Assembly: GCF_965363235.1 (NCBI RefSeq)
Contig: NC_134844.1
Coordinates: forward strand, 52,386,872 to 52,450,871
Reading direction: 5' to 3'
From: Mytilus galloprovincialis
Taxonomy: Eukaryota > Mollusca > Bivalvia > Mytilida > Mytilidae
DNA: 64,000 bases
The translations under genes and the position numbers were made by a program. Below, one piece after another: positions 5,031-58,040 of the stretch. The notes beneath the pieces were generated by a model that was not told the DNA's origin, did no database searches, and saw only the letters and a program-made list of their open reading frames with translations. The first letter of the stretch is position 1. Each line of letters opens with the position of its first letter.

Positions 5031-5186
5031 GTATGTATATGCTTTCGTTGGTTAATTTCACATTATTTTATCGAGCAAATAAGCAGTTTATAGCTAAATG
5101 GATATCTAAAACTGTATTGCCAATTAGGTAAAAAAAAATTACAAGAATATCTTACATATCTATAAATGTATTTTTTTTAGTAGATA

Positions 5187-6884
5187 ATGGCAAGCTCTGT
5201 ACAGCCGTGCAGTGTATGTGAATATCAACATGTCTTTACAACTGCCTCCATATGGTGTTCGGATTGTGATGAGGGACTCTGTATAGACTGCAGTAAGCAT
5301 CATGGAATTTCAAAAGCAACAAGAAAACATGTAACTATACCAATATCAGAATATCGAAAACTGCCGTCTTACATCACAAATATTAAGCAAACATGTAGTA
5401 CACATGATGCCAATTATCTGATTTACTGTCATGAACATGAATGTGCGTGTTGTAGTAAATGCATCGTTGAAAAGCACACACAATGTCAAAATATTTCCAA
5501 TCTTGATGATGTTGTCAAAAACACAAAAGCTTCAAACGCTTTTTTAGAAATTTGTGAAACATTAAATGAAGTTGCTGAAAACATCAAAAGGATCCGTCAA
5601 GATAAAAATGGTAATCTGAAAACATTTTCCGAAAAAAGAAAACAGATCGAATGTGAAATTGAACAGGTTCGGTTAAATATCAACCAACATCTCGATAAAC
5701 TACAAGAGGACTTCATATCGGAATTGCATGTGACAGAAAGAAGAGAAAAAACAAAAATCCATCAGTTAATGAAGGCTTTAGATGAGCATGAAAGTAAAGT
5801 TGAAGAGCACCAAAATAACGTAGCAAACATAAAAGAGTACGCATCTGATCTACAGACCTTTCTAGCACTTAAACAACTTGAATCCGATGTTGGTAAAAAC
5901 TGTCAGTTCATTGATTCACTTACTGAAAGTGATGTACTCAATCGTGTGGAAATCAAGTTTAACATTAATACTTCACTAACAGACATTACACATAGTGTTG
6001 ATGGGTTTGGAAACGTATATATTGACAACTCCAGTACCGTAGTGAACATTGCGAAGAAAAAGCAACAACAAGCTCAGTGGATACGACCTAAAATATCACC
6101 CATCATTCCCATTGAGAATATACAAGTCCAGTTGAAACAAAGCATAAAAACAGAATCGGACGTCAGAGGGTGCTGCATATTACCTGATGGTAGATTGGTG
6201 TTCACTTATCCTAAATTAAACAAAGTTACTGTAGTTAAACAAGACGGGATGGTGGACTTTGTTTTGAATGTAACAGCAGCATATGGTATAGCGTACAACG
6301 ATAAAGATAACACTATAGCGATAACATCCTGTTGGGGTAGGCAAGGCAAACAAATAACAATAACTGATTTAAAGGGACGAAGAGTAAAGAAAACCTTTTC
6401 ACCCGGACGACAAACCACTGGTATAGCGGTGACAAATAACACACTGCTGTATCACATTGAAAATAAAGCAATTCGAGCCATGGATCTTGCTGACGAATCA
6501 ACACGTGATATAACTACTGAGAACATGGACACAGTAATCAACATAACTATATCTGGACACAAACTTTATTATTCCAGTAATAAGTATCATACAGTAGTAT
6601 GCTGCGATATGCAAGGAGCGAAACAATGGACATTCAAAAATGAAAACATTTTAAAGAATCCATTAGGAATATCAGCTGACAATGCTGGTAACGTGTATGT
6701 TGGAGGATGTGGATCAAATAATGTCGTGGTTATCTCCCCTGATGGACAAACACATAGAGAACTCTTAACTAAAAGAGATGGTTTAGATTCCCCATGTTCA
6801 ATTAACTTTGGAAAGGAAACTAATCAGTTATTGGTTGCAAATGGTTGTCAGAAAGCGTATTTGTATAACGTATCTTGTTATTAA
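5187..6884 (+). CDS. TRIM-like protein A: two B-boxes, coiled coil, NHL-like propeller
   Basis: A complete 565-residue ORF in one exon. Residues 8-48 form a B-box 1-like zinc site (C8, C11, C24, C27, C32, C35, H38/H39, H48). Residues 70-100 form B-box 2 (C70, H73, C81, H84, C89, C92, H97, C100). A charged helical region, about 105-250, is the likely coiled coil. From about 325 to the end, repeated short motifs (RGCCILPDG, YGIAYND, TTGIAVTNN, LGISADNAGNVYV) indicate an NHL/SMP-30-like beta-propeller. There is no RING, so direct E3 activity is not supported. Such proteins are cytosolic TRIM relatives, expanded in bivalves and suspected in innate immunity or RNA and protein binding. The start is supported by conservation with copies B-D and by the AG acceptor directly upstream. 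The closest copy is TRIM-B. Confidence 0.9.
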   Translation: MASSVQPCSVCEYQHVFTTASIWCSDCDEGLCIDCSKHHGISKATRKHVTIPISEYRKLPSYITNIKQTCSTHDANYLIYCHEHECACCSKCIVEKHTQCQNISNLDDVVKNTKASNAFLEICETLNEVAENIKRIRQDKNGNLKTFSEKRKQIECEIEQVRLNINQHLDKLQEDFISELHVTERREKTKIHQLMKALDEHESKVEEHQNNVANIKEYASDLQTFLALKQLESDVGKNCQFIDSLTESDVLNRVEIKFNINTSLTDITHSVDGFGNVYIDNSSTVVNIAKKKQQQAQWIRPKISPIIPIENIQVQLKQSIKTESDVRGCCILPDGRLVFTYPKLNKVTVVKQDGMVDFVLNVTAAYGIAYNDKDNTIAITSCWGRQGKQITITDLKGRRVKKTFSPGRQTTGIAVTNNTLLYHIENKAIRAMDLADESTRDITTENMDTVINITISGHKLYYSSNKYHTVVCCDMQGAKQWTFKNENILKNPLGISADNAGNVYVGGCGSNNVVVISPDGQTHRELLTKRDGLDSPCSINFGKETNQLLVANGCQKAYLYNVSCY

Positions 6885-11557: not shown

Positions 11558-13210
11558 GTGAAAATTGGAATGTCCAACCTCAGTAGCTGTCAAATTTTGG
11601 AGGGAAATTTAGAAATAGAATTTTTCATAATCATGGAAGTACTTGCCGTAAATATGAATGAGAATATTCAACCTGCAGAAAAAAGAAAATATTTAAAAGA
11701 TAAAGTTGAGAGTGTTAAAAGAAGGAATGACATGAGGAAAGAAAAACCAAAACCTATTGAAGGAAAAATAAATTTTTCTTCTGGATCTATTGATGAGAAA
11801 AACTTGATATATGGAATGACCAATGACATTAAAAAGGCAATGGGTGGTGGGAACCCAAACAGGACTACAAATAAAGACATGTTATTTGAAGTAATGACAT
11901 TCTACATTAAAAACAATATAACACAACTGGATGAAGATCAACATATGGCTGAGGAAAGCAATATACCATTTTTGGACTGTTCTTTTACATCATGTAATGA
12001 GGAAACATCAACTCAGAAACTTTTTGTCACTGCCGAAACATCAATCGAGAACCTTATCAAAAGAGTGATAAACCATGGAAAAATTTGTAAAAGTCAGTTG
12101 CATCTTTACTCAACTGATATTAAGGGTCATGTTGGAGTATGCAAACTTAAATGTGAGGAAAAACATGAACTTCTCTGGTCAAGCTCACCGTATATGGGAG
12201 ACAAATATCTGTGTAATTTAAGAATGTCTCATGGATTTTATGTGTCAGGAATCCTACCAAACCAATATTCAAGATTTTGTCAGGCATCTAACATTGGTAC
12301 TATTGGGGAGACTACGCTGAATAGTATTTTCCAGAAATATGCCCCTGTATTGTCACAGCTGGTGAAAGAGTCATATGAAACTGCTCTTTTGGAGGAAATC
12401 GCGTCCTATGAAGAACTTCAAGAAGGTATCGATATTGTAACTGATGCAAGACATGGTACCAGAAAAGACTCTATGTACACAGACGTCGTTTGCCTTGGTG
12501 CCAGAACACACAAAGTTTTGCGTGTTGAAACAATTTCAAAAGTGGATTGTACAAGTGCACAAAAACATGTACTTATAGGAACAGAGAGGATTTACGAATA
12601 TTTTAAAAATCTCAGAGATGAGTACGAGGTGAAAATTCGTGTTCACTGTCATGACAGAAATACCAGTGTTAACAAATTTATCCATATTAATGGAATTGAC
12701 ACAGAATCAACAAATGATACCTGGCATGCCACCAAAAACATAGCCAAAGAAATCAAGACCATTTGTTCTGGACCAAGATACAAGGAAGGACAAACGTGGC
12801 ACCCTGAGTTATCGGACAAAGCAGCAAGTATAAAAACTCATCTGTATTGGGCAATGAAAAATTGTAATAAGGATCCAGTGAAACTTAAACTAAGTCTATT
12901 GAATATAGTTGAACATTATAAGAACAATCACGAACACTGTAGTGAATTATCAAGGTGTAAAACTGATTCAAATTATGAACCAACTAAATATTTAATCAAG
13001 AATCCCAAAGCAGAGATGTTATTAGGTCGGGCTCTAATGAACACCCAGGTATATAAATCGCCAACTGATTATGTTCATTGTATGGACAGTTATTATGTGG
13101 AAAGTTTCAATAATGCCATTCTTCAATATCACGACAAGAGAATTAACTTCTCCAAACAAGTTTATATTCTTCGGACAAATCTAGCTGTATTGGATTGGAT
13201 GAACATGTAA
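11558..13210 (+). CDS. Kolobok-like DDE transposase, C-terminally frameshifted
   Basis: A 550-residue open frame; alternative starts are M26 (11,633) and M34 (11,657). The N-terminus (1-110) is lysine-rich. At about 175-235 is a small Cys/His-containing region (GKICKSQLHLYS, CKLKCEEKH). The RNase H-like core carries DIVTDARHGTRKDSMYTDVV (first acidic residue in TDARH), then RVHCHDRNTSVNKF (second), and YYVESFNNAILQYHDKR near the end (candidate third). DTWHATKN and LNIVEHYKNNHEHC also match my memory of molluscan Kolobok-like proteins. The frame ends abruptly with WMNM at 13,198-13,210. One base earlier in register the reading continues for about 50 residues (HVNRQTTSLK to SEIWDQLVQIYLDL) to a stop at 13,351-13,353, so a single-base loss near 13,195 probably truncated it. 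Confidence 0.75.
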   Translation: MKIGMSNLSSCQILEGNLEIEFFIIMEVLAVNMNENIQPAEKRKYLKDKVESVKRRNDMRKEKPKPIEGKINFSSGSIDEKNLIYGMTNDIKKAMGGGNPNRTTNKDMLFEVMTFYIKNNITQLDEDQHMAEESNIPFLDCSFTSCNEETSTQKLFVTAETSIENLIKRVINHGKICKSQLHLYSTDIKGHVGVCKLKCEEKHELLWSSSPYMGDKYLCNLRMSHGFYVSGILPNQYSRFCQASNIGTIGETTLNSIFQKYAPVLSQLVKESYETALLEEIASYEELQEGIDIVTDARHGTRKDSMYTDVVCLGARTHKVLRVETISKVDCTSAQKHVLIGTERIYEYFKNLRDEYEVKIRVHCHDRNTSVNKFIHINGIDTESTNDTWHATKNIAKEIKTICSGPRYKEGQTWHPELSDKAASIKTHLYWAMKNCNKDPVKLKLSLLNIVEHYKNNHEHCSELSRCKTDSNYEPTKYLIKNPKAEMLLGRALMNTQVYKSPTDYVHCMDSYYVESFNNAILQYHDKRINFSKQVYILRTNLAVLDWMNM

Positions 13211-21250: not shown

Positions 21251-21531
21251 TTTTTATTTGAATTTACAATAAACGCGTAATGGGATTTAATCTAAAAATA
21301 AAGCTGATACTTTTTCTTTAATGAGGATCTTCATTTGATGTTCAATGGGGAAACAGTATTGTATGTATATGCTTTCGGTGGTTGATTTCTCATTATTGTA
21401 TCGTGCAAATAAGCAGTAAATAGTTAAATAGATATCTAAAACTTTATTGCCAATTCAATAAAAAAAATTACAAGAAAATTTTACGTGAACATTTTACATA
21501 TCTATAAAAGTAAAGATTTTTTTAGTAGATA

Positions 21532-23232
21532 ATGGCAAGCTCTGTACAGCCGTGTGGTGCATGTGAATATCAACATGTCTTCAAACCTGCGTATATATGG
21601 TGTTCAGATTGTGATGAGGGGCTCTGTATAGACTGTAGTAAGCATCATGGAATTTCCAAGTCAACACGAAAACATGTCACTGTACCGATATCAGAATATC
21701 GACAGCTGCCGTCTTACATCACAAATATTAAGCAAACATGTAGTGCACATGAAGAAAAATATCAAATCTACTGCAAAGACCATGAAGAAGTATGTTGCAG
21801 TAAATGCATCGTTGAAAAACACGCGAAATGTCCAAATATTTCCAATATTGATGATATTGTTAAAAACATTAAGACCTCAAATGGTTTTCTAGAAATTCAG
21901 GAAACATTGAATGAAGTTGCTGAAAACATCAAACGGATCCGTCACGATAAAAATGACAATCTAAAATCTTTGTCCGAGAAAAGAAACCAGATCGAATGTG
22001 AAATTCAACGTGTTCGATTAAATATTAATGAACATCTCGATAAAGTACAAAAGAAATTCATATTAGAATTGCACGCGACAGAAAAAAGAGAGGAAACAAA
22101 AATCCTTCAGTTGATGAAAGCTTTAGATGAGCATGAACGTAAAGTTGTCAAGCACCAAGAGAATATAGCAAACATAAAACAACACGCATCAGATCTACAG
22201 ACCTTCCTATCTCTGAAGCAGCTTGAAGGTAATGTTGATGAAAACTGTCAGTTTATTGATTCACTTTCTGAAAGTAATGTTCTTAATCGTGTGGAGATCA
22301 AGTTTAACATTAACACATCATTTACTGACATGGCAAATAGTGTTCTTGAGGTTGGAAATGTATTTATTGACATCTCTAATAGCTCAGTGAACATTGTGAA
22401 GAAAAAACAACAACAAGCTCAGTTGATAGTACCTAAAGTATCCTCAATTGTGCCCATTGAGAATATACAAGTCAAGTTAGAACAGACTATAAACACCGAA
22501 TCATCTTATGTTAGAGGATGTTGCATATTGCCTGATAGTAGATTTGTATTCGCCTATCCTGGTTTAGACAAAGTTACTGTAGTTAAACAAGACGGGACGG
22601 TTGACTTTGTTTTGAATGTAACAGCAGCATGTGGTATAGCGTACAACAATGAGGATACCACTATAGCAATATCATCCCGTTGGAATACCCAAGGCAAACA
22701 AATAACACTAATTGATTTAAAGGGACGAAGAGTAAAGAAAACTTTTTCACCTGGTGGACAAACCGATGGCATAGCAGTGACAAATAATACACTGTTGTAT
22801 CACATTGAAAATAAAGGAATTCGGGCCTTGGATCTGACTGACGAATCAACACGTGATATAACAACGGAGAACATGGACACATTAATCAACATAACTATAT
22901 CTGGAAACAAACTTTATTATTCCAGTTATAAGTATCATACAGTAGTATGCTGCGATCTGCAAGGAACAAAACAATGGACATTCAAAAATGAAAACGTTTT
23001 AAAGAATACATTTGGAATATCAGCTGACAATGCTGGTAATGTGTATGTTGTAGGACGTGGATCAAATAATGTCGTGGTTATCTCCCCTGATGGACAAAAA
23101 CATAGAGAACTATTAACTAAAAGAGATGGTTTAGAATACCCATATTCAATTAACTTTAGAAAGGAAACTAATCAGTTATTGGTTGCAAATGATTGTCAGA
23201 AAGCGTATTTGTATAACGTATCTTGTTATTAA
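21532..23232 (+). CDS. TRIM-like protein B: two B-boxes, coiled coil, NHL-like propeller
   Basis: A complete 566-residue single-exon ORF, collinear with TRIM-A. Zinc ligands are kept: C8, C11, C24, C27, C32, C35, H38/H39 and H48 in B-box 1; C70, H73, C81, H84, C89, C92, H97 and C100 in B-box 2. The coiled coil is at about 105-250 and the propeller from about 325. Differences from A cluster in surface positions (GACEYQHVFKPAY against SVCEYQHVFTTAS at the N-terminus; CKDHEEVCCSKC in B-box 2), so both copies look maintained as coding sequence. There is no RING. The start is fixed by the shared N-terminus and the acceptor at 21,524-21,525. The likely role is as for TRIM-A. Confidence 0.9.
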   Translation: MASSVQPCGACEYQHVFKPAYIWCSDCDEGLCIDCSKHHGISKSTRKHVTVPISEYRQLPSYITNIKQTCSAHEEKYQIYCKDHEEVCCSKCIVEKHAKCPNISNIDDIVKNIKTSNGFLEIQETLNEVAENIKRIRHDKNDNLKSLSEKRNQIECEIQRVRLNINEHLDKVQKKFILELHATEKREETKILQLMKALDEHERKVVKHQENIANIKQHASDLQTFLSLKQLEGNVDENCQFIDSLSESNVLNRVEIKFNINTSFTDMANSVLEVGNVFIDISNSSVNIVKKKQQQAQLIVPKVSSIVPIENIQVKLEQTINTESSYVRGCCILPDSRFVFAYPGLDKVTVVKQDGTVDFVLNVTAACGIAYNNEDTTIAISSRWNTQGKQITLIDLKGRRVKKTFSPGGQTDGIAVTNNTLLYHIENKGIRALDLTDESTRDITTENMDTLINITISGNKLYYSSYKYHTVVCCDLQGTKQWTFKNENVLKNTFGISADNAGNVYVVGRGSNNVVVISPDGQKHRELLTKRDGLEYPYSINFRKETNQLLVANDCQKAYLYNVSCY

Positions 23233-29516: not shown

Positions 29517-30744
29517 TTTATGTTTTACCCCACCGCATTTTTAATTTTAGTTCATTATGAGATGATTTCAGCTTTCCAATTGTGAACTTTCCATTTCTAA
29601 GTAGCAACATTCCAGCAGCACCTGCATACGGGGTATATATCTCCCAATTGATACGATATTCCCGTGCTTGCGTTTCCTATCATGATTTTCTTGATAGAGG
29701 GTTACTGCTCACAAGGAAGCTATTAAACCAAGAGTTCCAAATGGTGAAGTTGAAATCATCCCTTCGTAAATTTTACGGACGCCATCACGAGTTGGTTGAT
29801 CGTTATGGAATAACCGTTTCACAAATGATATCGGATATGTTCCTTACGTCGTAACTACAATCCCCTTCCCTTTCATGAATGTGACCACCGAATTAGACTA
29901 TTTACCGGATTTGTAATTACATAAGCAACACGACGGGTGCCACATGTGGAGCAGGATCTGCTTACCCTTCCGGAGCACCTGAGATCACCCCTAGTTTTTG
30001 GTGGGGTTCGTGTTGTTTATTCTTTAGTTTTCTATGTTGTGTCATGTGTGCTATTGTTTTCTGTTTGTCTTTTTCATTTTTGGCCATGGCGTTGTCAGTT
30101 TATATTAGATTTGTGAGTTTGACTGTCCCTTTGGTATCTTTCGTCCCTCTTTTGTTGGAGTTTAGTGTGACGTTAATTTTCACTGAACCAGTATACAATT
30201 ATATTTAGGGGCCAGCTGATGAGTTCTAATGAGACAACTATCTATCTTAGTCACAATGTCTGAAAGGTTACAATTATATGTCAAAGTACGGCCTTCAACA
30301 CAAAGCATTGGTTCACACTGAAATACAAGTTAACATTAAAGGGCCCCATAATGACTAGTGTAAAACATTTCAAACATGCAGGAAAACCTATATAACAATT
30401 GAGAAATGAGAAACACTTATAATCATCGCAAAGTACTCGATGATGTCATCAAATTATTGTTGTAATTGATCTAATTGTAATTGCTTTTAATCGAAAACTT
30501 TGACAACTACATCGAATAATGTTATCAGTTACAATCAAATAGGGTTACAGATTATGATTACCTCGTCCCTAATAAGCATATATAATAAATAGCAACACGA
30601 AAGACAATAGACATTCATATAAATATGTAGAGGGGTAGTGTATAATTTCCTGAAATAAAAACATAAGTTTAAGAAAGAAGCTCCTTCTTTTCTATATTTT
30701 ACTTGTTTTAATGACGAAGTCAAATAAGAACATTATATATCCGA
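29517..30744 (+). mobile_element. Penelope-like RT fragment plus tail and a second repeat
   Basis: Inserted in block B relative to block A (empty at about 14,457-14,462; CGTT appears on both sides). From about 29,555 it carries the C-terminal part of a reverse transcriptase frame (readable 29,582-29,854, including YGVYISQLIRYSRAC and FYGRHHELVDRYG), then the non-coding tail to about 30,158 ending ATCTTTCGTCCCTCTTTT. 30,159-30,420 is a different dispersed repeat related to 4,200-4,620 and 59,060-59,480. The RT core is missing, so this is a 5'-truncated fossil. Confidence 0.65.
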
Positions 30745-32762: not shown

Positions 32763-33334
32763 GTAATTACATAGTTTCTTCATATGTTTGTAATAATATT
32801 TGAATATTAGGAATAACATAAACCGCTAACCCTCAGTGTAAAATATTGACAAATATAATACTTATCCATGTTAAAATGAGCATGCATAAGGACATGAAGG
32901 AGTTATTTTTTTTTATTATAATTGGCATTTCATGTGTTTACTATGGTTTCTGTTTATATTGTATTACATACATTGCGGTGAAAAAAGTTGAGAAAGTGAG
33001 ACAGATTACGAATACTTTGAGACCCCAGGGGAAAGTTGAAAGCGGGCGCCATTATATAGCAGAATGTTAGGAATGTGTATATGATAGAATCCTATTCTTT
33101 GAATGGGAATATAATGTAAGCTGGTGCGATTTTAGAGGGGAAATATATACGTTTGCATACAAGTTAGTCATATGTTGTACCTAAGATTACAAAGTATACA
33201 ACTCAACACATACGATTATGAACAACACTAAATAGGCAACAATTAGTGTATGCTTTTAAACTTTTAGGAATTTTGGTCCTTAATACTCTTCAACTTCGTA
33301 CTTTTTTTGGCCTTTTAAACTTTTTTGGATTAGA

Positions 33335-33378
33335 GCGTCACTGATGAGTCTTTTGTAGACGAAACGCGCGTCTGGAGT
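33335..33378 (+). ncRNA. Predicted hammerhead ribozyme (type I, short stem III)
   Basis: All core elements are in order: stem I strand GCGTCA (33,335-33,340), CTGATGA (33,341-33,347), stem II GTCT/AGAC with loop TTTGT, GAAA (33,361-33,364), a very short CGCGC stem III, and cleavage triplet GTC (33,370-33,372) followed by TGGAGT, which re-pairs with GCGTCA (one mismatch). Hammerheads with this short stem III are known from Penelope-like elements and metazoan retrozymes. It lies within the predicted 5' intron of TRIM-C, same strand, in a dispersed repeat of about 33,240-33,415. Activity is untested. Confidence 0.7.
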
Positions 33379-33572
33379 ATATTATACAAAATTTAGTCCT
33401 GGGTATCTATGATGAGTTTTTTTTCAATGGTTAATTTCGTATTGTTCTGTATTGAAAATAGTGGTTAAATATACTGGACAGCTGCATTTTTTGTCCAATT
33501 TAGTCCAGAAATCACAACAATAACATTTTACACACCTTTAAATGTAAATAAGTTATTATTCTTTTTTAGAAT

Positions 33573-35271
33573 ATGGCAAGGCTCTGTACCTTCTTGCAGT
33601 GTATGTGAATATCAACATGTATTCAAAACTGCATCCATATGGTGTTCAGATTATGATGAGGGTCTTTGTATAGACTACAGTAAGCATCACGGAATTTCCA
33701 AGTCAACACCAAAACATGTCACTGTACCGATTTCAGAATATCGAAACCTGCCATCTTACATCACAAATATTAAGCAATCATGTAGTACACATGATGCCAA
33801 TTATCTGATTTACTGCCATGAACATGAATGTGCGTGTTGTAGTAAATGCATTGTTTAAAAAACATACAAAATGTCAAAATATCTCCAATCTTGATGATGT
33901 TGTCAAATACACAAAGACTTCAAACGCTTTTTGAGAAATTGATGAAACATTGAATGAAGTTGCTGAAAACATCAAACGGATCCGTAAAGATAAAACTGGT
34001 AATCCGAAAACATTGTTCGAGAAAAGAAAAAATATCGAATGTGAAATTCAACAGGTTCGGTTAAATATCAATCAACATCTGGATAAACTGCAAGAAGACT
34101 TCTTATCAGAATTAAATGAGACAGAAAGGAGAGCAAAAACATCCATCAGTTAATGAAAGCTTTAGATGAGCATTGAAGTAACGTTGCAGAGCAACAAAAG
34201 AACGTAGCACACATAAAAGAATACGCATCCGATCTACAGACCTTTCTAGCACTAACACAACTTGAAATTGGTGTAACTGAAAACGGTGAGTTCATTCATT
34301 CACTTACTGAAAATGATGTTCTCAATCGTGGTGAGATCAGGTTTAACATTAATACATTACTGGCAGACATTGCAAATAGTATTTATGAGTTTGGAAAAGT
34401 ATATATTGACAACTCCAGTAACGTTGTAAACATTGCGAAGAGAAAACGTCATCAAGCTCAGTTGGTATTACCTAAATCATCGCCCATCGTGCTCATTGAG
34501 AATATACAAGTCCAGTTGCAACAAACTATAAATACCAAAGTTTCGTATGCCACATGATGTTGCCTATTGCCTGATGGTAGATTATGTTTCATCTATCCTT
34601 CATTCAAAAAAGTAATTGTAGTTATACAAGACGGGTCGGTTGATTTTTCATTAAACGTACAAGCAGCATATGGTGTAGCATACAACAATGAGGATAACAC
34701 TATAGCCGTATCATCCTGTTGGGGTGATCAAGGGAAACAAATAACAATAATTGATTTGACGGAACGAAAAGTTCTGAAAACTATTCTTCCTGGTGGACAA
34801 ACCACTGGTATAGCGGTGACAAATAACACACTGCTGTATCACGTAAAAAACAAAGCCATTCGGGCCATGAATCTAACTGACAAAACAACACGTGATATAA
34901 TTACTGAGAACCTCGACTCAGAAGTCAACATAACAATATTTGGACACAAACTTTATTATTCCAGTTATAAGTATCATACAGTAGTAAGCTGCGATCTACA
35001 AGGAACAAAACACTGGACATTCAAAAATGAAAATGTTTTGAGTCATCCATGTGGAATATCAGCTGACAATGATGGTAACGTGTATGTTGTAGGATGTAGA
35101 TCAGAGAATGTCGTGGTTATCTCCCCTGATGGACAAAAACAAAGAGAACTCTTGAGAAGAAGAGATGGCTTAGCTTCCCCATTGTCAATTAACTTTCGAA
35201 AGGAAACTAAACAGTTGTTAGTTGCAACTATAATAAATAAAACATATCTGCATAACGTATCTAGAAATTAA
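33573..35271 (+). pseudogene. TRIM-like pseudogene C
   Basis: Full-length TRIM relic. An extra G after ATGGCAAG shifts the frame at the start. Two B-box 1 cysteines have become tyrosine (SDYDEG and CIDYSK). A stop and shift occur after B-box 2 (about 33,853), and more occur in the coiled coil and at 34,555. The last 234 codons (34,567-35,271) are an open, well-preserved propeller (YGVAYNNEDNTIAVSSCWGD, CGISADNDGNVYVVG). A canonical AATAAA is at 35,309-35,314. It is equally related to A, B and D. Unlike A and B it has no retroelement fragment in its 3' flank. Confidence 0.85.
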
Positions 35272-38118: not shown

Positions 38119-40289
38119 TAAACCAGAGGCTCTAAAGAGCCTGTGTCGCTCACCTTGGTCTATGTGAATATTAAATGGGAACAGATTGTGCCCCTCTGCT
38201 TGTCGACTTGTTTCTTTGTTATTATGAGGCTGACTTCATCCAGGAACTTCTTAGGAAGAAAGATAAGAGGTTAGCAATATCCTTTAACTCTACTTTTCGC
38301 TATATAGATGATGTTCTTTCACTTAATAATTCAAAATTTGGTGACTATGTGGAACGCATCTATCCAATCGAGCTAGAGATAGGGGATACTACAGATACAG
38401 TTACGTCGCTCTCATATCTTGACTTACATCTTGAGATTGACAGTGAGGGTCGGTTGAAAACAGAACTTTACGACAAAAGGGATGGTTTCGGCTTTCCGAT
38501 TGTGGGCTTTCCGTTTCTGGGTGGCGGCATTCCGGCAGCGCCTGCATACGGGGTATATATCTCCCAGTTGATACGATATTCCCGTGCTTGCATTTCCTAT
38601 CATGATTTTCTTGATAGATGTTTGCTGCTCGCAAGGAATCTATTAAACCAAGAGTTCCAAATTGTGAAGTTGAAATCATCCCTTAGTAAATTTTACGGAC
38701 GCCATCACGAGTTGGTTGACCGTTATGGAATAACCGTTTCACAAATGATATCGGATATGTGCCTTACATCGTAACTACAATCCCCTTCCCTTTCATGAAT
38801 GTGACCTACCGAATTAGACCATTTTCAGGATTTGTTATCACATAAGCAACACGACGGGTGTCGCATGTGGAGAAGGATCTGCTTACCCTTCCGGAGCACC
38901 TGAGATCACCCCTAGTTTTTTGGTGGGGTTCGTGTTGTTTATTCTTTAGTTTTCTATGTTGTGTCGTGTGTGCTGTTGTTTGTTTGTCTTTTTTCATTTT
39001 TAGCCATGGCGTTGTCAGTTTGTTTTAGATTTATGAGTTTGACTCCCTTTGGTATCTTTCGTCCCTGTTTTAAACAAAGGACGCAGATGGATTCATGACA
39101 AAATTGTGTTTTGGTAATGGTGATGTGTTTGTACATCTTTCTTTACTGAACATTCTTGCTGCTTACAATTATCTGTATCTATAATGAACTTGGCCCAGTT
39201 AAGTTTCAGTTGAAAATGTTAGTAAAAATTTACAAATTATGAAAATTGTTAAAAAATGACTATAAAGGGCAATAACCATTTCAGTCATGTTGACTTATTT
39301 GTAAATCTTACTTTGCTGAACATTATTGCTGTTTACAGTTCATCTCTATCTATAATAATATTCAAGATAATAACCAAAAACAGCAAAATTTCCTTAAAAT
39401 TACAAATTCAGGGGCAGTAACCCAACAATGGGTTGTCCCATTCATCTGAAAATTTCAGGGCAGATAGATTTTGACCTGATAAACAATTTCATTCATGTCG
39501 GATTTGCTCTAAATGCTTTGGTTTTGGAGTTATAAGCCAAAAACTGCATTTGACCCCTATGTTCTATTTTTAGCCATGGCGGCCATCTTGGTTGGTAAGG
39601 GTGGTCACCAGACACATTTTTTAAACTAGATACCCCAATGATGATTGTGGCCAAGTTTGGTTTAATTTGGCCCAGTAGTTTTAGAGGAGAAGATTTTGTA
39701 AAAGATAATTAAGATTTACGAAAAATGATTAAAATTGACTATAAAGGGCAATAACTCCTAAAGGGGTCAACTGACCATTTCAGTCATGTTAACTTATTTG
39801 TAGATTTTACTTTGCTGAACATTATTGCTGTTTACAGTTTATCTATAATAATATTCAAGATAATAACCATATAACGGCAGAATTTCCTTAAAAATGCCAA
39901 TTCAGGGGCAGCAACCCAACAACCGGCTGTCCGATTCGTCTGAAAATTTCAGGGCAGATAGATCTTGACTTAATAAACAATTTAATCTCTGTCAGATTTG
40001 CTCTAAATGCTTCGGTTTCAGAGTTATAAGCCAAAAACTGCATTTGATCCCTATGTTCTATTTTTAGCCATGGCCACCATCTTGGTTGGTTGGCGGGGTC
40101 ACCGAACACATTTTTTAAACTAGATAACCCAATGATGACTGTGGCCATGTTTGGTTAAATTTGACCCACTAGTTTCAGAGGAGAAGATTTTTGTAAAAGT
40201 TAACGACGACGGACGACGGACGACGACGGACGCCGGACGCCAAGTCATGAGAAAAGCTCACTTGGCCCTGAGGGCCAGGTGAGCTAAAA
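38119..40289. repeat. AGCTCACTTGGCC-type dispersed repeat, split by a retroelement
   Basis: Starts with AGAGGCTCTAAAGAGCC and CGCTCACCTTGG (38,120-38,158), resumes at about 39,073, and runs to the terminal hairpin GCTCACTTGGCC/GGGCCAGGTGAGC at 40,257-40,286. The interior has two imperfect copies of a unit of about 560 bp (TTTACTTTGCTGAACATT, ATTCAAGATAATAACCA, TTAGCCATGGC) at 39,230-39,715 and 39,720-40,200, then a CGACGGACGACGGACG run. The same family is in the opposite orientation at 62,862-64,000. Open frames such as 39,888-40,148 belong to the repeat. Confidence 0.7.
38173..39072 (+). mobile_element. 5'-truncated Penelope-like retroelement with RT C-terminal half
   Basis: A 199-codon frame (38,175-38,774) reads as the C-terminal half of a reverse transcriptase: MGTDCAPLLVDLFL (motif B region), FRYIDDVLSL (catalytic motif C, YIDD), then YLDLHLEI, YGVYISQLIRYSRAC and FYGRHHELVDRYG. 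A conserved tail follows and ends TTTCGTCCCTGTTTT. TTAAA flanks both sides (about 38,168 and 39,069), and the flanks belong to one dispersed repeat, so this is a nested insertion. The G-x-MGT-x-CAP and RYIDD pattern suggests a Penelope-like element. The clade is inferred. The 5' part and any endonuclease are absent. Confidence 0.7.
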
Positions 40290-41585: not shown

Positions 41586-44206
41586 ATGGCAAGCTTTGTA
41601 CCTTCGTGTTGTGTATGTGAATATCAACATGTCTTTGAAACTGCATCCATATGGTGTTTAGATTGTGATAAGGGCCTCTGTATAAACTGTATTAAGCATC
41701 ATGGAATTTTAATAGGGACAAGCACACATGTAAAAGAGGGACGAAAGATACCAAAGGGACAGTCAAACTCATAAATCTAAAACAAACTGACAACGCCATG
41801 GCTAAAAATGAAAAAGACAAACAGAAAAACAATAGTACACAAGACACAACATAGAAAACTAAAGAATAAACAACACGAACCCCACCAAAAACTAGGGATG
41901 ATCTCAGGTGCTCGGAAGGGTAAGCAGATCCTGCTCCACATGTGGCACCCGTCGTGTTGCTTATGTGATTACAAATCCGGTAAATAATCTAATTCGGTAG
42001 GTCATATTCATGTAAGGGAAGGGGATTGTAGTTACGACGTAAGAAACATATCCGATATCATTTGTGAAACGGTTATTCCGTAACGGTCAACCAACTCGTG
42101 ATGGCGTCCGTAAAATTTACGAAGGGATGATTTCAACTTCAACATTTGGAACTCTTGGTTTAATAGCTTCCTTGTGAGCAGTAACCCTCTATCAAGAAAA
42201 TCATGATAGGAAATGCAAGCACGGGAATATCGTATCAATTGGGAGATATATACTCCTTATGCAGGGGCTGCTGGAATGTTGCTACTTAGAAATGGAAAGT
42301 TCACAATGGGAAGCTGAAATCATCTCTTTTGTCGTAAAGTTTTGTTTTCAACCGACCCTCATTGTCAATTTCTAGATGTAAGTCAAGATATGAAGCCGAC
42401 TTAACTGTATCTGTAGTATCCTTTATCTCAAATTCGATGGAATAGATGCGTTCTACATAGTCACCAAATTTTGAATTGTTTAGTGAAAGAACGTCATCTA
42501 TATAGCGGAAAGTAGAGTTAAAGGATATTGCTAACTTCTTATCTTTCTTCCTAAGAAGTTCCTGCATGAAGTCAGCCTCATAATAATAAAGAAACAAGTC
42601 GGCAAGTAGAGGGGCACAGTTTGTTCCCATTGGAATGCCGACAGTCTGTTAAAAAACACGTCCTCCGAACGTTACAAATATGTTGTCAATCAAGAAATCA
42701 AGCATCTTGATAATATCGGTTTCAGAGAATTTTTTGTTTGAATCAGAGTGATTCTTTACGAAGTATGATTTGTCCCTCCCTAAGACAAGATACTTGTATC
42801 TACGTTGGACATTCTTTTTTATGAAGCAAAGTAATACCAACTCTTTCAATTTGTCTTTTAGTTTGGAATGTGAATACTTGTGTACTATACCGATATCAGA
42901 GTATACAAACCTACCTGATTACATTACAAATATCAAGCAGACATGTAATACACATGATGAAAATCATCAGATTTACTGCAATGAGCATGAATGCCCTTGT
43001 TGTAGTAAGTGCATCGTTCAAAATCACACAAAATGTAAAAATATTTCCAATCTTGATGAAGTTGTCAAAAACTCAAAGACCTCAAACACTTTTTTTTTGG
43101 AAATTCAGGAAACATTAAATGAAGTAGCCGAAAACATCAAGCGCATTCGTCAAGATAAACATAGCAATTTGATAACTTTGTCTGAAAAAATAAAACAGAT
43201 CGAATGGGAAATTCAACAGGTTCGGTCTAATATCAATGAATATCTAGACAAACTGCAATAGGACTTCATATCAGAATTAAACGAAACAGGGAGAAGAGAA
43301 AAAAACAAAAATCCATCAGTTAATGAAAGCTTTAGATGAGCATGGAAGTAAAGTTGTAGAGCACTAAAAGAACGTAGCACACATAAAAGAATACGCATCC
43401 GATCTACAGACTTTTCTAGCACTAACACAACTTGAAATTGGTGTAACTGAAAACGGTGAGTTCATTCATTCACTTACTGACAATGATGTTCTCAATCGTG
43501 TGAAGATCAAGTTCAACTTTAATACATCACTGAAAGACATGGCAAATCATGTTGCTGTGTTTGGCAAAGTATATATTGACAACTCAAGTACCTCACTGAA
43601 CATTGTAAGAACAAAACAACAACAAACTCAGTTGATATTACCTAAAGTATCCCCCATTGCGGCCATTGAGAATATACAAGTCCAGTTACAACAAACTATA
43701 ATACTCGAATCATCTTTCGTCCGAGGATGTTGCATATTGTCTGATGATAGAATTGTGGTTACGTATCCTTCATCAAACAAATTATCTGTAGTAAAACAAG
43801 ACGGAACTGTTGACTTTTCTTTGAGTGTACGTGAAGCACATGGTGTAGCATACAACAATGAAAATAACACTATAGCGATATCATCTTGTTATGGTAATCA
43901 AAATAGGTATCATACAGTAGTATGATGTGATCTACAAAGAACAAAACAATGGACATTCAAAAATGAAAATGTTTTAAAGTACCCATATGGAATATCTGTT
44001 GACAATTATGGTAATGTATATGTTGTAGGGAGTGGGTTGAAAAATGTCGTTGTTATCTCACCAGATGGACAAAACTATAGGGAACTATTAACTATGAGGG
44101 AGCCTAGTGATTGCCCACGGTTAATTAACTTTGAAAAAGAAACTAATCAGTTATTAATTGAAAACAATGGAAAAGCTTATCTGTATAATGTGGTTAGTAA
44201 TTATTA
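41586..44206 (+). pseudogene. TRIM-like pseudogene D, split by a retroelement
   Basis: B-box 1 reads well from ATG at 41,586 (MASFVPSCCVCEYQHVFETA...CLDCDKGLCINC) up to THV at about 41,732, where a reverse-oriented RT element begins. TRIM sequence resumes at about 42,881 (TIPISEYTNLPDYITN) through B-box 2 and coiled coil to an in-frame stop at 43,259. Further breaks follow. The propeller is missing about 240 bp at about 43,905 (GNQN joined to RYHTVV) and then has a stop. The copy ends LYNVVSNY at about 44,206. AATAAA lies at 44,245-44,250. It is a dead host gene. Confidence 0.85.
41733..42880 (-). mobile_element. Penelope-like retroelement inserted in TRIM-D
   Basis: On the minus strand it reads from a truncated 5' side (LKELVLLCFIKKN, YKYLVLGRDKSYF, IDNIFVTFGGRVF) through MGTNCAPLLADLFL and FRYIDDVLSL to FYGRHHELVDRYG and the tail, ending at the left border with GAGGGACGAAAGATACC. 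TGTA occurs at both borders (about 41,729-41,732 and 42,877-42,880), a plausible short target duplication. It is the longest RT copy in the window. It is 5'-truncated and has a small number of breaks. Confidence 0.7.
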
Positions 44207-44482: not shown

Positions 44483-44702
44483 AGTTATAGTGTCGGAATC
44501 TGTTTCTCTGATGACTTTTATCATTCTTTTTCAAAGATTTTTAGAAACTTGTGTTTTTTATATGCGACGTCACCAGGCAAGGTCGCCTTTTTTCATGACG
44601 TCACAATAGGAAAATTCAGAAGAAAGCAAAACATTTTGACGTCATAATCAAATTTCGACTAATCATTTGCCGAGAACAGATTTTTCACTAGTGAGGAGAA
44701 TT

Positions 44703-44850
44703 AACTAATCGCCGTATTTGAATATCAAAAATAAGACAACGCGTGACCGAACGACGCATGGATTAAACGAGTGCGCAGCACGAGTTTAATCCATAGCGGC
44801 GTTCGGTCACAAGTTGTCTTATTTTTGATATTCAAATACGGCGATTAGTT
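44703..44850. repeat. Hairpin-forming inverted repeat II
   Basis: Arms of about 71 bp (44,703-44,773 and 44,779-44,850) are nearly perfect reverse complements, from AACTAATCGCCGTATTTG to the loop around GTGCGCAGCAC. It is the strongest hairpin in the window. It may be a unit with repeat I (both use an ACGAGT/CGAG-type centre), a MITE cluster of about 0.5 kb. Confidence 0.8.
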
Positions 44851-45197
44851 ATCCTTTTTATTACATTGGCAAATGGCTTTCTTTTTTTTATGAAATTAAT
44901 GTGGAATATGTAAGGAACTATATCTTTTTCCTACGCATTGACAATTTGTTTTGATCCGACGTTATCGACGTCTTGACAACGCCTATTGTTGTATGACGTC
45001 AGAGAGTGAAATAACCCCGTTTATTTCACATGTGAAATTATCGGTTTTTATCTAACTGGGAAATCAATGTAATTCATTGCAACCAATATAATAAATATTT
45101 TTCTCACACCGGACAGGAAATGTGAAAATAGCACAAAAATTAGAGAATATAATTTCCAAACCCTAGATTGGTTCACTCAGTGTTTATGAGATATATT
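44851..45197. other. Non-coding stretch
   Basis: AT-rich, no gene seen. A small palindrome TTTCACATGTGAAA lies at about 45,025-45,038. Confidence 0.4.
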
Positions 45198-45224
45198 AAT
45201 AAAATTAACGGTACCAATTTTCTT

Positions 45225-45270
45225 GCACCAGATGCGCATTTCGACAATACATGTCTCTTCAGTGATGCTC
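45225..45270 (-). ncRNA. Predicted hammerhead ribozyme, retrozyme copy 1
   Basis: On the minus strand: stem I GCATCA, core CTGAAGA (the CTGANGA consensus tolerates the A), stem II GACA/TGTC with loop TGTAT, GAAA, a minimal TGCGCA stem III, cleavage after ATC (between 45,231 and 45,230), then TGGTGC, which pairs fully with GCATCA (one G-U). All conserved core positions are present. Confidence 0.7.
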
Positions 45271-45574
45271 GTTGCCAAAATATTTGAAATCCAAAGCTTA
45301 TATAAAAGATGAAGAGCTATAATCCAAAAGGTCCAAAAAGTATAGCCAAATCAGTGAAAGGAATCAGAGCTTTGCATGAGGGAGATACATTCCTTAATTT
45401 AAAATAATTTCTAATATTTTGTAACAGCAAATTTTAATAACACAAACAATCCGTATTTTCATGCCAGTACCGAAGTACTGGTTACTGGGCTGGTGATACC
45501 CTCGGGGACTAATAGTCCACCAGCAGAGGCATCGACCCAGTGGTAGTAATAAAATTAACGGTACCAATTTTCTT

Positions 45575-45620
45575 GCACCAGATGCGCATTTCGACAATAC
45601 ATGTCTCTTCAGTGATGCTC
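45575..45620 (-). ncRNA. Predicted hammerhead ribozyme, retrozyme copy 2
   Basis: Identical in sequence to copy 1 and shifted by 350 bp; predicted cleavage between 45,581 and 45,580. Together the two would release a 350-nt RNA from a minus-strand transcript. Confidence 0.7.
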
Positions 45621-45827
45621 GTTGCCAAAATATTTGAAATCCAAAGCTTATATAAAAGATGAAGAGCTATAATCCAAAAGGTCCAAAAAGTATAGCCAAA
45701 TCAGTGAAAGGAATCAGAACTTTGCATGAGGGAGATACATTCCTTAATTTAAAATAATTTCTAATATTTTGTAACAGCAAATTTTAATAACACAAACAAT
45801 CCGTATTTTCATGCCAGTACCGAAGTA

Positions 45828-54010: not shown

Positions 54011-54252
54011 GAAATAAAAGTGAACGGTGTTGAAAGGGCCTTTATACGTACTTATAAATATAATTTTTTTCTGTGACTGTATATTACATTAATTTGTAGG
54101 ATCCTTTACTATAGATAATTTAGCTGATCTGTAACAATAACATCTTCATGCCTTATATATCATATACTGTAGTACGCCGCTAGATTAAAACTGACGAGGA
54201 AAGGTAACACACGGCCAGCGAAAGCTCTTTTTTGAGAGCCCAGGTGGTCTTG

Positions 54253-54322
54253 TGGTCTAGCGGGACGGCTGCAGTGCAGGCGATTTGGTGTCACGATATC
54301 ACAGTAGCATAGGTTCGAATCC
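54253..54322 (+). promoter_or_regulatory. tRNA-like Pol III A/B boxes, unit 1
   Basis: A-box TGGTCTAGCGG (54,253-54,263) and B-box GGTTCGAATCC (54,312-54,322), 59 bp apart start to start. The B-box is canonical. No full cloverleaf with a matched acceptor stem could be drawn, so this is tRNA-derived, not a tRNA gene. Confidence 0.6.
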
Positions 54323-54692
54323 CGGCGAGGGAAGAACCAAAAATTTGCGAAAGCAAATTTACAGATCTAACATTGTTGGGGTGATGTTTAGACGAGTTGT
54401 ATATACATTATGTACACAGCCATGTATCACCATCATTGATGGCGATCCGATGGATACATCTGTTGTAGAGTTGTCACTGACTCAGACGTACTTATAAATA
54501 TAATTATTTTCTGTGACTGTATATTACATTAATTTGTAGGATCCTTTACTATACATAATTTAGCTAATCTGTAACAATAACATCTTCATGCCTTATATAT
54601 CATGTACTGTAGTACGCCGCTAGATTAAAACTGACGAGGAAAGGTAACACACGGCCATCGAAAGCTCTTTTTTGAGAGCCCAGGTGGTCGTG

Positions 54693-54762
54693 TGGTCTAG
54701 CGGGACGGCTGCAGCGCAGGCGATTTGGTGTCACGATATCACAGTAGCATAGGTTCGAATCC
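54693..54762 (+). promoter_or_regulatory. tRNA-like Pol III A/B boxes, unit 2
   Basis: A-box 54,693-54,703 and B-box 54,752-54,762, both identical to unit 1. Confidence 0.6.
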
Positions 54763-55131
54763 CGGTGAGAGAAGAACCAAAAATTTGCGAAACAAATTTA
54801 CAGATCTAACATTGTTGGGTTGATGTTTAGACGAGTTGTATATACATTATGTACACAGCCATGTATCACCATCATTGATGGCGATCCGATGGATACATCT
54901 GTTGTAGAGTTGTCACTGACTCAGACGTACTTATAAATATAATTATTTTCTGTGACTGTATATTACATTAATTTGTAGGATCCTTTACTATACATAATTT
55001 AGCTGATCTGTAACAATAACATCTTCATGCCTTATATATCATGTACTGTAGTACGCCGCTAGATTAAAACTGACGAGGAAAGGTAACACACGGCCAGCGA
55101 AAGCTCTTTTTTGAGAGCCCAGGTGGTCATG

Positions 55132-55201
55132 TGGTCTAGCGGGACGGCTGCAGTGTAGGCGATTTGGTGTCACGATATCACAGTAGCATATGTTCGAATC
55201 C
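55132..55201 (+). promoter_or_regulatory. tRNA-like Pol III A/B boxes, unit 3 (altered B-box)
   Basis: A-box unchanged (55,132-55,142). The B-box reads TGTTCGAATCC (55,191-55,201), losing the first G, so this copy may be a weaker promoter. Confidence 0.5.
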
Positions 55202-55460
55202 CGGCGAGGGAAGAACCAAAAATTTGCAAATTTACAGATCTAACATTGTTGGGTTGATGTTTAGACGAGTTATATATATATATAACTCGTCTAAACATCA
55301 ACATTTTTACTGTTTGGTAATAAATTAATATTAAGATCCATTTGGTACATCGTGTGGTCAATTTATTTGGCAACCGTTCATTCTATTTTGTCTCTTTTAA
55401 ATTATAGAGTCCCTAAATTGAGGTGAATTATATGGCCTTCCAAATACCGTTTCGATCCCT

Positions 55461-55506
55461 AACATCACTGATGAGACATTAATTGTCGAAATCCGGATCT
55501 GGTTTA
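55461..55506 (+). ncRNA. Hammerhead-like motif, copy 1
   Basis: CTGATGA (55,468-55,474), stem II GACA/TGTC with loop TTAAT, GAAA (55,488-55,491), TCCGGA stem III, ATC cleavage triplet, then TGGTTTA, which pairs only partly with the upstream AACATCA (one mismatch in six). Core complete, stem I weak. Confidence 0.55.
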
Positions 55507-55604
55507 TTTAGAAACCGTTCATCCTATTTTGACTCTTTAAAATTATATAGTCTATCCTAAATTGAAGTAAATTATGTGGTCTTCCAAATACCGTTTCCAT
55601 CCCT

Positions 55605-55650
55605 AACATCACTGATGAGGCATTAATTGTCGAAATCCGGATCTGGTTTA
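55605..55650 (+). ncRNA. Hammerhead-like motif, copy 2
   Basis: CTGATGA at 55,612-55,618, then GGCA/TGTC as stem II (one G-U), GAAA, TCCGGA, ATC, TGGTTTA. Same layout as copy 1, 144 bp downstream. Confidence 0.5.
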
Positions 55651-55779
55651 TTTGGCAACCGTTCATCCTATCCGGATCTGGTTTATTTGGCAACCGTTCA
55701 TCCTATCCGGATCTGGTTTATTTGGCAACCGTTCATCCTATTTTGACTCTATAAAATTTTATAGTCCTCTTTATGATAC

Positions 55780-56345: not shown

Positions 56346-56420
56346 AAATAAAATATATATATATAGTCTATCCTAAATTGAGGTAAATTATGTGGTCTTC
56401 CAAATACCGTTTCCATCCCT

Positions 56421-56467
56421 AACATCACTGATGAAACATTAATTGTCGAAATCCGGATCTGGTGTAC
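56421..56467 (+). ncRNA. Hammerhead-like motif, copy 3
   Basis: CTGATGA at 56,428-56,434, stem II AACA/TGTC (one mismatch), GAAA, TCCGGA, ATC, then TGGTGT, which pairs with ACATCA over six bases (one G-U). Better stem I than copies 1 and 2, weaker stem II. Confidence 0.5.
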
Positions 56468-56469
56468 AA

Positions 56470-58040
56470 ATGTTTGCATCTCATGTTTGTGGTATGCCAT
56501 CTTCACCGCAAGTTTATTGTTTTCTGTTAGGTAATAAATTAATATAAAGATGTTACATCTTGTGATCAATTTATTTGGCAATCGTCAATGGCAGTCAGCA
56601 GGGTTTATGAACATCAGTTGTTCGACCTGTTAGTCAAATGCGTTTTGTTAAAATATACTCTTTTCACTTTTTTGGGGTCTTTCGGAAAATGTTGTTTGTT
56701 CTGTTAGACCCCTCTACCACGAAATTTGTTTTACATGCACACGCATAAAATTGCGGTTTTTATCCAACGCAATCATAGGTTTGAACTTTTTTTCTATTTA
56801 GACATATTTACATCTGGACAGAAGTTCAAGTTTCCTGGCTGTTTAGTTTTCGTTCATGTCTCTCAGTTTCTATCTCAAACTGTTGTTACTCAGTCTACTT
56901 TTTTCAAGTTCATCATGAACTAACGGGTAACTTTCTTAATTTTCTGAAATTTGAATTTGAAATACTGGCTGAGTTTTTGAGTACCGTTTGAGTAATTATT
57001 TCTTTTGTCTAGCAGTGCATTAAGAAACCTCTTTCGCTCCAGACATTCATGACATCAAATAGAATTTGATTAAATTTATTTTACAAAAATTTTCAGATAG
57101 ATTTGTTAATGATCCACTTTTTAACTGTAATCGAACAGTATATTCTATACCATGAGTTATTTGACTGGTTTCTGTTTGATTTATACGCACTATATGCTCT
57201 ACTCAAAAGATCAGATGGGGATTGCCCATGTCTAGTATACCAGTACATAAATATTTGCAGTGTAAACAAGTCAAGTGTCATCCTTTGCTTGTAAAGCACA
57301 GACTTTTTTTTAGAAACACCAAGAATGTGTTTAGAGAATTTTAAGTTAAACTTTTCCATTTCCTAGTCTTTTAAAATATCTAATAGAGAATTTTTTTTTT
57401 TTTGGAACACATATATGCGTTAAATGCATTCAAAGGAAGATAACTCTCATCTGGAAAAGTAAAAAAAAAACCACGTGCAGTTCAGTCCCTTTATGCATCC
57501 ACAATATATACCTTGCATTACGGTGTAGCATTGCATCTGGTTATATAAACGATAATTTTATGCATTTTGCATTGTACAATAAAAACACAAGCAATCGTTT
57601 ATTATATCCCGAACAATGTGAAGCCTACTTTCGGGAAGACAGATGATGAATATTAATGAGACAGTCCCGCCACCTGGTGTCTATATGAAGTGTATTGTTG
57701 AAAAACACAGCTGCCGACAATGAAAGAAGAATATATTTTCTGCGATAATGGTTTTATATACCTGGGTTGTAATATATGACGATCATACATATACATAGTA
57801 TGTACTTTTACTTGTTTTCGTTTAACGTAGTGGCTTGTTTACGAGATTTTCCGCATTTATGGAAATTTTCTAAGGGGAGGTCACTCTAATTTACTTTTGT
57901 GACAATTTTTTTCTACTTCATTTCCTCAATATATTCGTCATTTAGTTGACAATTCCAGTAATCCTTTGTCATACTAAGATCACATTTCACTATACTGAAG
58001 TAATGTGTTAAGCAAAGTTTCTCATTTGTTTACGTTTCAG
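56470..58040. other. Non-coding stretch
   Basis: AT-rich, with open frames below 90 codons and no motifs on either strand (for example 57,093-57,359 minus). No gene or repeat family recognised. Confidence 0.45.

Follow-up and report, generated by a model that had tools for sequence, protein, structure and literature searches.

The window analysed here, a stretch of 64,000 nucleotides from the Mytilus galloprovincialis genome (RefSeq assembly GCF_965363235.1, contig NC_134844.1, positions 52,386,872–52,450,871), carries a tandemly repeated element on its minus strand at positions 45197–45827. The period of the repeat unit is exactly 350 and the unit is repeated 1.8 times. When the bases of the two 350-bp copies are paired, 279/280 are identical, and the sole difference is a G at position 45369 and an A at position 45719. 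A repeat search gives the same picture, with 284-nt copies that start at positions 45194 and 45544 and are 99% identical. In the ribozyme sense the insertion runs from 45827 to approximately 45197. Its 3′ end can be placed no finer than 45194–45197 because flank bases match by chance; position 45197 was adopted from the pattern seen in the family. The features of the locus are:

45197..45827, minus strand: retrozyme insertion, which in the ribozyme sense consists of unit positions 104–350, then 1–350, then 1–34 (1.8 units)
45225..45268, minus strand: type I hammerhead of the left copy, predicted cleavage between 45231 and 45230
45575..45618, minus strand: type I hammerhead of the right copy, predicted cleavage between 45581 and 45580
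45231..45580, minus strand: 350-nt monomer between the cleavage sites, a predicted circular RNA (circularity by analogy with the available text of PMC7229834)
45197..45230, minus strand: tail of approximately 34 nt, which begins at the cleavage site and stops at the fixed 3′ end, the putative start of reverse transcription
45515..45542, minus strand: 28-nt box, CACTGGGTCGATGCCTCTGCTGGTGGAC, just downstream of the putative start, in the full unit; common to a Penelope-like element (PLE)
45460..45543, minus strand: folded RNA element that begins with the box (z = −4.16), candidate reverse transcriptase (RT)-binding element

Each copy shows, on the minus strand, the sequence CUGAAGA, a 4-bp stem II, GAAA, a 2-bp stem III with a GCGC loop, UC, and a 6-bp stem I, with hammerhead position C3 at 45262 and 45612. 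The earlier note on this DNA had described two near-identical tandem units 350 bp apart, each with a hammerhead, and this is borne out by the match at 279/280 bases and by the complete core and stems. Its reading of the unit count stands in part. The 350-nt monomer of positions 45580–45231 does lie between the cleavage sites, but just one unit is full, the rest being a 5′-truncated unit (positions 104–350) and the tail of approximately 34 nt. A young insertion, which the note had also suggested, is plausible, provided that a single RNA was the template of both units, since the 280 paired bases differ at just one.

Other elements are found in the same window. A 56-nt inverted repeat with 95% complementarity and 38 nt between its arms is situated at positions 44702–44851, approximately 350 bp from the retrozyme. 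A Mutator-like transposase open reading frame at positions 11558–13210 (plus strand) matches Pfam PF20700 with an E-value = 4.7e-12. Frames that appear related by eye are found at 5184–6884, 21529–23232, 34558–35271, and 42752–43925; the frame at 5184–6884 has sub-threshold matches to B-box and beta-propeller-like Pfam models.

Genome copies and the hammerhead motif

The genome searched consists of 1.385 Gb in 331 contigs. A 770-aa open reading frame, with 22 matches to the decapeptide array of mussel adhesive proteins, marks it as that of a Mytilus-type mussel. With two mismatches or fewer, the family A ribozyme, which is that of the locus, has 6,174 copies and the family B ribozyme 31,180 copies, and the reversed-pattern control gives 0 for both. 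The 350 bp unit, with a G+C content of 0.37, falls within the tandem units of approximately 170–400 bp and low G+C that are characteristic of metazoan non-LTR retrozymes, and the 6,174 copies represent the dispersed, multi-copy distribution of such elements. According to the available text of Cervera and de la Pena (2020, PMC7229834), M. galloprovincialis retrozymes are approximately 350–390 bp in length, their cleavage and RNA circles have been demonstrated, and circles are the main retrozyme RNA form in tissue. The same source gives approximately 5,000 retrozyme copies and two ribozyme families for an earlier assembly of this species. Families A and B are likely these two families. Thus the earlier note was right to see a retrozyme here, given the 6,174 copies, the conserved ribozyme, and an architecture like that of the published Mytilus retrozymes (PMC7229834, available text). 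The locus belongs to an established type of element, the non-LTR metazoan retrozyme of Mytilus.

The hammerhead core alone is weak evidence because the bare pattern CUGANGA...GAAA has 17 occurrences on the two strands of the window. A strict descriptor, which consists of the core, a stem II of at least 3 bp, a stem III, and a stem I of at least 5 bp, is found exactly twice in the window, both times at the locus, and 0 times in 150 first-order Markov windows. The earlier note had named the covariance model of the type I hammerhead as a check, with rejection by the model to count against the motif, and formally this is the outcome. Rfam shows no hammerhead over the window at the gathering score, nor at an E-value of 10 or less on 851 bases. 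The mismatch is not counted as refuting the motif because the model is a poor detector here: over the whole genome, Rfam Hammerhead_1 places 29 above the cut-off among 74 scored of 224,653 first-look candidates, compared with the 6,174 and 31,180 motif copies.

Folding of the 93-nt ribozyme region does not give the hammerhead as the structure of lowest energy (z = −0.37), and in the 44-mer the hammerhead fold has −3.7 kcal/mol versus −7.8 kcal/mol for the best fold. The circular fold of the 350-nt unit has −80.2 kcal/mol, and an excess of self-pairing in the circle is not claimed because 10/60 controls are at least as low. Mussel hammerheads are reported to be without most conserved nucleotides of the usual tertiary contacts and to be slower than the hammerhead of coral, with a kobs of about 0.1 per minute (PMC7229834, available text).

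Sequence variation was compared by region over 37 independent insertions, the choice of which is given in the following section. Variable cells number 8/2,557 in the ribozyme, 12/1,663 in the box, 40/3,035 in the tail, and 305/17,618 in the remainder of the unit; separately, the core has 4/943, stem I 4/974, and stem II 0/640. The core and stems I and II thus vary in 0.0–0.4% of cells versus 1.7% in the remainder, and a Fisher test against the remainder gives p = 3e-10 for the ribozyme and p = 0.001 for the box, where the cells are non-independent, as copies share ancestry and the loci chosen are those most like the window. All of the 12 core letters tested are kept in 69/72 units that have a complete core. 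This conservation among copies is stronger evidence for a ribozyme than Rfam or folding.

Other hammerhead-like motifs are present in the window. A 439-bp repeat with CTGACGA...GAAA at positions 54191, 54631, and 55070 was rejected as a hammerhead, since by eye there is no U16.1 after stem III. This 439-bp unit is present in 2.8 copies at 54046–55278 and by eye displays tRNA-like promoter boxes; ARAGORN calls no tRNA. A 144-bp tandem repeat at 55362–55741 and 56361–56470 (plus strand) has hammerhead-like motifs at 55468, 55612, and 56428. It is interrupted by approximately 600 bp flanked by TATAGTC, as seen by eye, and overlaps a 35-bp unit of 3.1 copies. A 5′-truncated retrozyme at 33259–33417 (plus strand) belongs to another family; its hammerhead-like motif has C3 at 33341, and it ends in a tail that by eye is like that of a variant at locus L019.

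Ends and target sites of the insertions

The DNA search scored 40 of 884 candidates, and the 40 loci consist of 39 genomic loci and the window. Three (L010, L020, and L027) have flanks that duplicate others and were left out, which gives the 37 independent insertions. Some pieces of exactly 50 bases from this search are apparent search-window edges and were not taken as ends. The insertions are 0.97–4.8 units long, and 25/37 contain two or more exact hammerhead cores. In the ribozyme sense, 36 of the 37 have their 3′ end at unit positions 31–39: 18 at position 34, five at 33, five at 35, four at 37, and one each at 31, 36, 38, and 39. The exception is L037, whose 3′ end is at position 74. The 5′ ends are spread from position 1 to 326; by eye, several of those given as 1 are really a few bases earlier, pieces shorter than 25 nt having been filtered.

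Because the query had been cut to stop at the 3′ end found in the window, the search might have been biased towards loci that end there, and two controls were needed. Insertions of at least 1.5 units are a subset not favoured by the cut, and 20/21 of these end at positions 31–39. Ten loci from a box search were taken in chromosome order, with places that have several close boxes skipped; seven end at positions 32–38, L077 runs off its piece, L076 is of family B, and L083 is ambiguous. Genome-wide word counts point the same way. There are 4,785 family A words that end at position 33 versus 2,374 that end ten bases on, and family B words go from 25,122 to 8,402 over 10 nt (controls 0 for both families), a drop that is inflated to an uncertain degree by sequence variation in the second word.

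Target-site duplications, for which more than 4 bp is the criterion when present, show no excess over shuffled flank pairs at the 40 loci. Four empty sites are readable: 6 bp are lost at L030, approximately 3 bp are duplicated at L033, and about none at L026 and L041. L030 lies inside a PLE open reading frame and L033 in a PLE 3′ UTR, and L026 has extra bases at the 5′ junction. A preference for A+T-rich targets is not seen, the flanks being no richer in A+T than background. LINE-type poly(A) tails are not in evidence either, as 0/37 of the 3′ flanks begin with six or more A.

Two other arrangements of retrozyme sequence are found on contig C1. At G000:C1:433590-448317, 43 retrozyme boxes are exactly 350 bp apart, apparently a retrozyme turned satellite array. 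At L053 (C1:8651700-8656300), a 312-aa open reading frame that by eye is like a CDC25 phosphatase lies between retrozyme pieces 3526 bp apart, and 815 bp around the retrozyme pieces are repeated at 97.7%.

The Penelope-like element and the box

A first look at the genome for PLE RT sequences gives 53,025 candidates, 150 of which were scored. The tandem PLE array L052 has a period of 3345 bp and carries an open reading frame of 1024 aa from stop to stop. The predicted protein, 995 aa from the first Met, resembles RVT_1 at amino acid positions 640–849 (E-value = 1e-4) and GIY-YIG at positions 130–167 (E-value = 0.034), both below the Pfam cut-off. The sole match in NCBIfam is a group II intron RT model, far under the cut-off, and comparison with PDB gives nothing meaningful. 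Many PLEs carry a hammerhead; in this tandem unit none is found by the regex used, which minimal variants could escape. Permuted PLEs, the Naiad elements said to have been described by Craig et al. in 2021, reportedly carry an endonuclease-like domain before the RT and are abundant in invertebrates. We take the domain order and the tandem habit of the mussel PLE to fit a permuted PLE of the Naiad kind.

The window has several fragments of this PLE. Three end at the fixed PLE 3′ end:

38174..39072, plus strand: 5′-truncated PLE copy with an RT fragment (open reading frame 38175–38771) and 3′ UTR
41731..42885, minus strand: 5′-truncated PLE copy
29559..30153, plus strand: 5′-truncated PLE copy

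A Pfam search with the RT fragment in the window gives no match. The PLE fragments in the window have variable 5′ ends. Seven of them extend to the end of the 3′ UTR, of which, numbered on L052, six stop at 2105–2107 and one at 2097; a further two, which are degraded, stop short of this. Elsewhere in the genome, 20/20 sampled PLE copies leave the tandem reference at L052 2103–2108 (median 2105.5), before the box, and the tandem junction has 159 occurrences with two mismatches or fewer. The element thus displays the tandem or partial tandem copies, the 5′ truncation, and the fixed 3′ end by which PLEs are recognised. At G000:C5:43628110-43628838 the junction of PLE tail and box is present five times, 174 bp apart, possibly a second non-autonomous PLE derivative.

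The retrozyme and the PLE have a sequence in common just past their respective 3′ ends. The retrozyme continues after position 34 with CTAC-CACTGGGTCGATGCCTCTGCTGGTGGAC, and in the PLE array the 3′ end is followed in the next unit by TTAC-CACTGGGTCGATGTCTCTGCTGGTGGAC. The box was compared between the retrozymes and one PLE family of this genome, and in a two-sequence BLAST comparison of retrozyme and PLE 33/35 nt are identical with an E-value = 3e-11. The gap from the 3′ end to CACTGGG has a median of 4 in the retrozymes (mode 4, 18/37) and a median of 4.5 in the PLEs (range 2–7, n = 20). The match in spacing is close but not exact because the PLE ends spread over 6 nt. The exact 28-mer box, with one two-way letter, has 2,174 occurrences in the genome (control 0). 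Family B, the second retrozyme family, also carries the box, and by eye its copy L076 ends at CTATT, 4–5 nt before the box position of its own unit.

The RNA from the box on was folded and compared with shuffled sequences. The retrozyme gives z = −4.16 (0/200 shuffles), the PLE z = −3.80 (0/200), and the third variant, L019, z = −2.21 (5/200). The retrozyme fold pairs ACUGGG with CCCAGU and GAUGCC with GGUAUC; the PLE fold pairs ACUGGG with CCCAGU and CGAUGUC with GACGUCG, approximately 60 nt further on and inside the open reading frame. The 3′ strand of the PLE consists of other letters than that of the retrozyme, with the pairing to the box kept. Such a match is found in 0/20,000 approximate dinucleotide shuffles of the downstream sequence, in a test framed after the fold had been seen, and the energy of the whole fold is reached by downstream shuffles in 6/1,000. 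The folded element opened by the box is thus a candidate RT-binding element. New here are the fixed 3′ end of the retrozyme copies and the box common to the PLE at a matching spacing. Neither was found in the PMC literature searched, outside of which most subscription papers lie, so that this is no proof of priority.

Mobilisation of the retrozyme

On the evidence of the sequences it is quite probable that a PLE of the same genome mobilises the retrozyme. In the proposed cycle, minus-strand transcripts of tandem units would self-cleave at the hammerheads to give 350-nt monomers, and a host ligase would close the monomers into circles, as published for Mytilus galloprovincialis retrozymes and presumed here. 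The PLE protein, with its N-terminal GIY-YIG-like domain and RT, would recognise the folded element opened by the 28-nt box (CACTGGGTCGATG...); this is proposed because the box is also present in the PLE RNA, at an almost equal distance from the start site of the PLE. At a nick in the target DNA, the PLE RT would start the cDNA internally, approximately 4 nt upstream of the box at unit position 34, and would run round the circle one to several times until falling off. Rounds on a circle from an internal start would produce a fixed 3′ end, variable 5′ ends, and lengths of approximately 1–4.8 units. An RT that needs no 3′ end could use a closed circle as template, which would explain insertions of more than one unit. 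Binding, priming, and the role of circles as templates are steps that we infer from these patterns. The Anolis PLE offers a precedent for such a start: reverse transcription begins inside the RNA, the start sites match the PLE tail, and the required RNA is 3′ of the start, in the first 172 nt of the open reading frame (Frangieh et al., 2024, PMC11167929, available text).

Within insertions, 57 variant columns are common to all units, 116 are confined to a single unit, and 9 are mixed, eight of these in L039. The pattern would suit repeated copying of one template, with mutations acquired afterwards, and is not specific to a circle. A variant compatible with mobilisation by the PLE is that the PLE copies the uncleaved tandem transcript instead of a circle and that cleavage is a side reaction. 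Multi-unit source loci do exist, at least two exact cores being present in 25/37 insertions, and hammerhead mutants left PLE insertion in vitro unchanged in the available text of Frangieh et al. (PMC11167929), a reason for caution about circles. However, the prevalence of circles among retrozyme RNAs in M. galloprovincialis tissue (PMC7229834, available text) and the scarcity of mixed variants, 9 columns against 57 common and 116 single, both speak against the uncleaved transcript, the copying of which is less likely than not.

The evidence of the ends bears on two further explanations, in which the PLE has no part. One is that of an ordinary, known mussel retrozyme moved by another non-LTR element (LINE), the box then being an ancient remnant or the product of chance exchange with the PLE. 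Mytilus retrozymes of such a size are published, and LINEs as well as PLEs are among the possible mobilisers named (PMC7229834, available text); moreover, the regex used finds no hammerhead in the PLE. This explanation is nevertheless unlikely in view of the box, whose median distance from the fixed 3′ end is 4 nt for the retrozyme and 4.5 nt for the PLE, with both RNAs folding there, and of the 3′ flanks, 0/37 of which begin with at least six A. The other is that of a tandem satellite DNA in which the hammerheads are passengers and which spread through unequal exchange or through rolling DNA copies. Long arrays do occur, e.g. the 43 boxes 350 bp apart at C1:433590-448317, and array length alone may still owe to exchange. 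But the dispersed insertions have a common 3′ end (36/37) and differing 5′ ends, four empty sites are readable, and the ribozyme is more conserved than the rest of the unit, so that a satellite origin is disfavoured and appears highly improbable.

The mobiliser of animal retrozymes is left open in the available text of PMC7229834 and PMC11722881, where PLEs are a strong candidate on circumstantial grounds. The shared box at a matching distance from a fixed cDNA start turns this guess into a specific, testable pair that consists of one protein, two RNAs, and a predicted start site. It is moderately likely that the mussel retrozymes are circle-borne parasites of one PLE family, which carry its RT-recognition element next to a hammerhead, with the circle copied round and round by an RT that starts internally and has no need of a 3′ end. 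If true, the mobiliser of a metazoan retrozyme would be identified and the formation of circles would have a function. The shared box at this distance also suggests a reason why a circular RNA is able to act as template in retrotransposition.

LINE/SINE pairs share 3′ ends, and the non-autonomous element borrows the RT-recognition sequence of the autonomous element. The retrozyme and the PLE differ from such pairs in that their common sequence sits downstream of the start and in that the template is probably a circle. The permuted PLEs of the Naiad type are said to have an endonuclease-like domain before the RT, as in the mussel PLE, a likeness by domain order only.

Among known systems, the Mytilus retrozymes of PMC7229834 share with the locus the type I hammerhead, the unit of approximately 350–390 bp, the two ribozyme families, the low G+C, and the lack of an LTR. 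A fixed 3′ end, a common box, and an identified partner are not described in the available text of that paper, which has PLEs as a strong candidate. The Anolis PLE (PMC11167929, available text) is alike in its tandem copies, its internal cDNA start, its tail signature of 30–40 bp, and its needed RNA just 3′ of the start. It has a C-terminal endonuclease and a hammerhead; in the mussel PLE the GIY-YIG-like domain is N-terminal, and no hammerhead is found by the regex used. The retrozyme, with its order of tail, start, box, and fold, displays the layout of the Anolis PLE in miniature (PMC11167929, available text).
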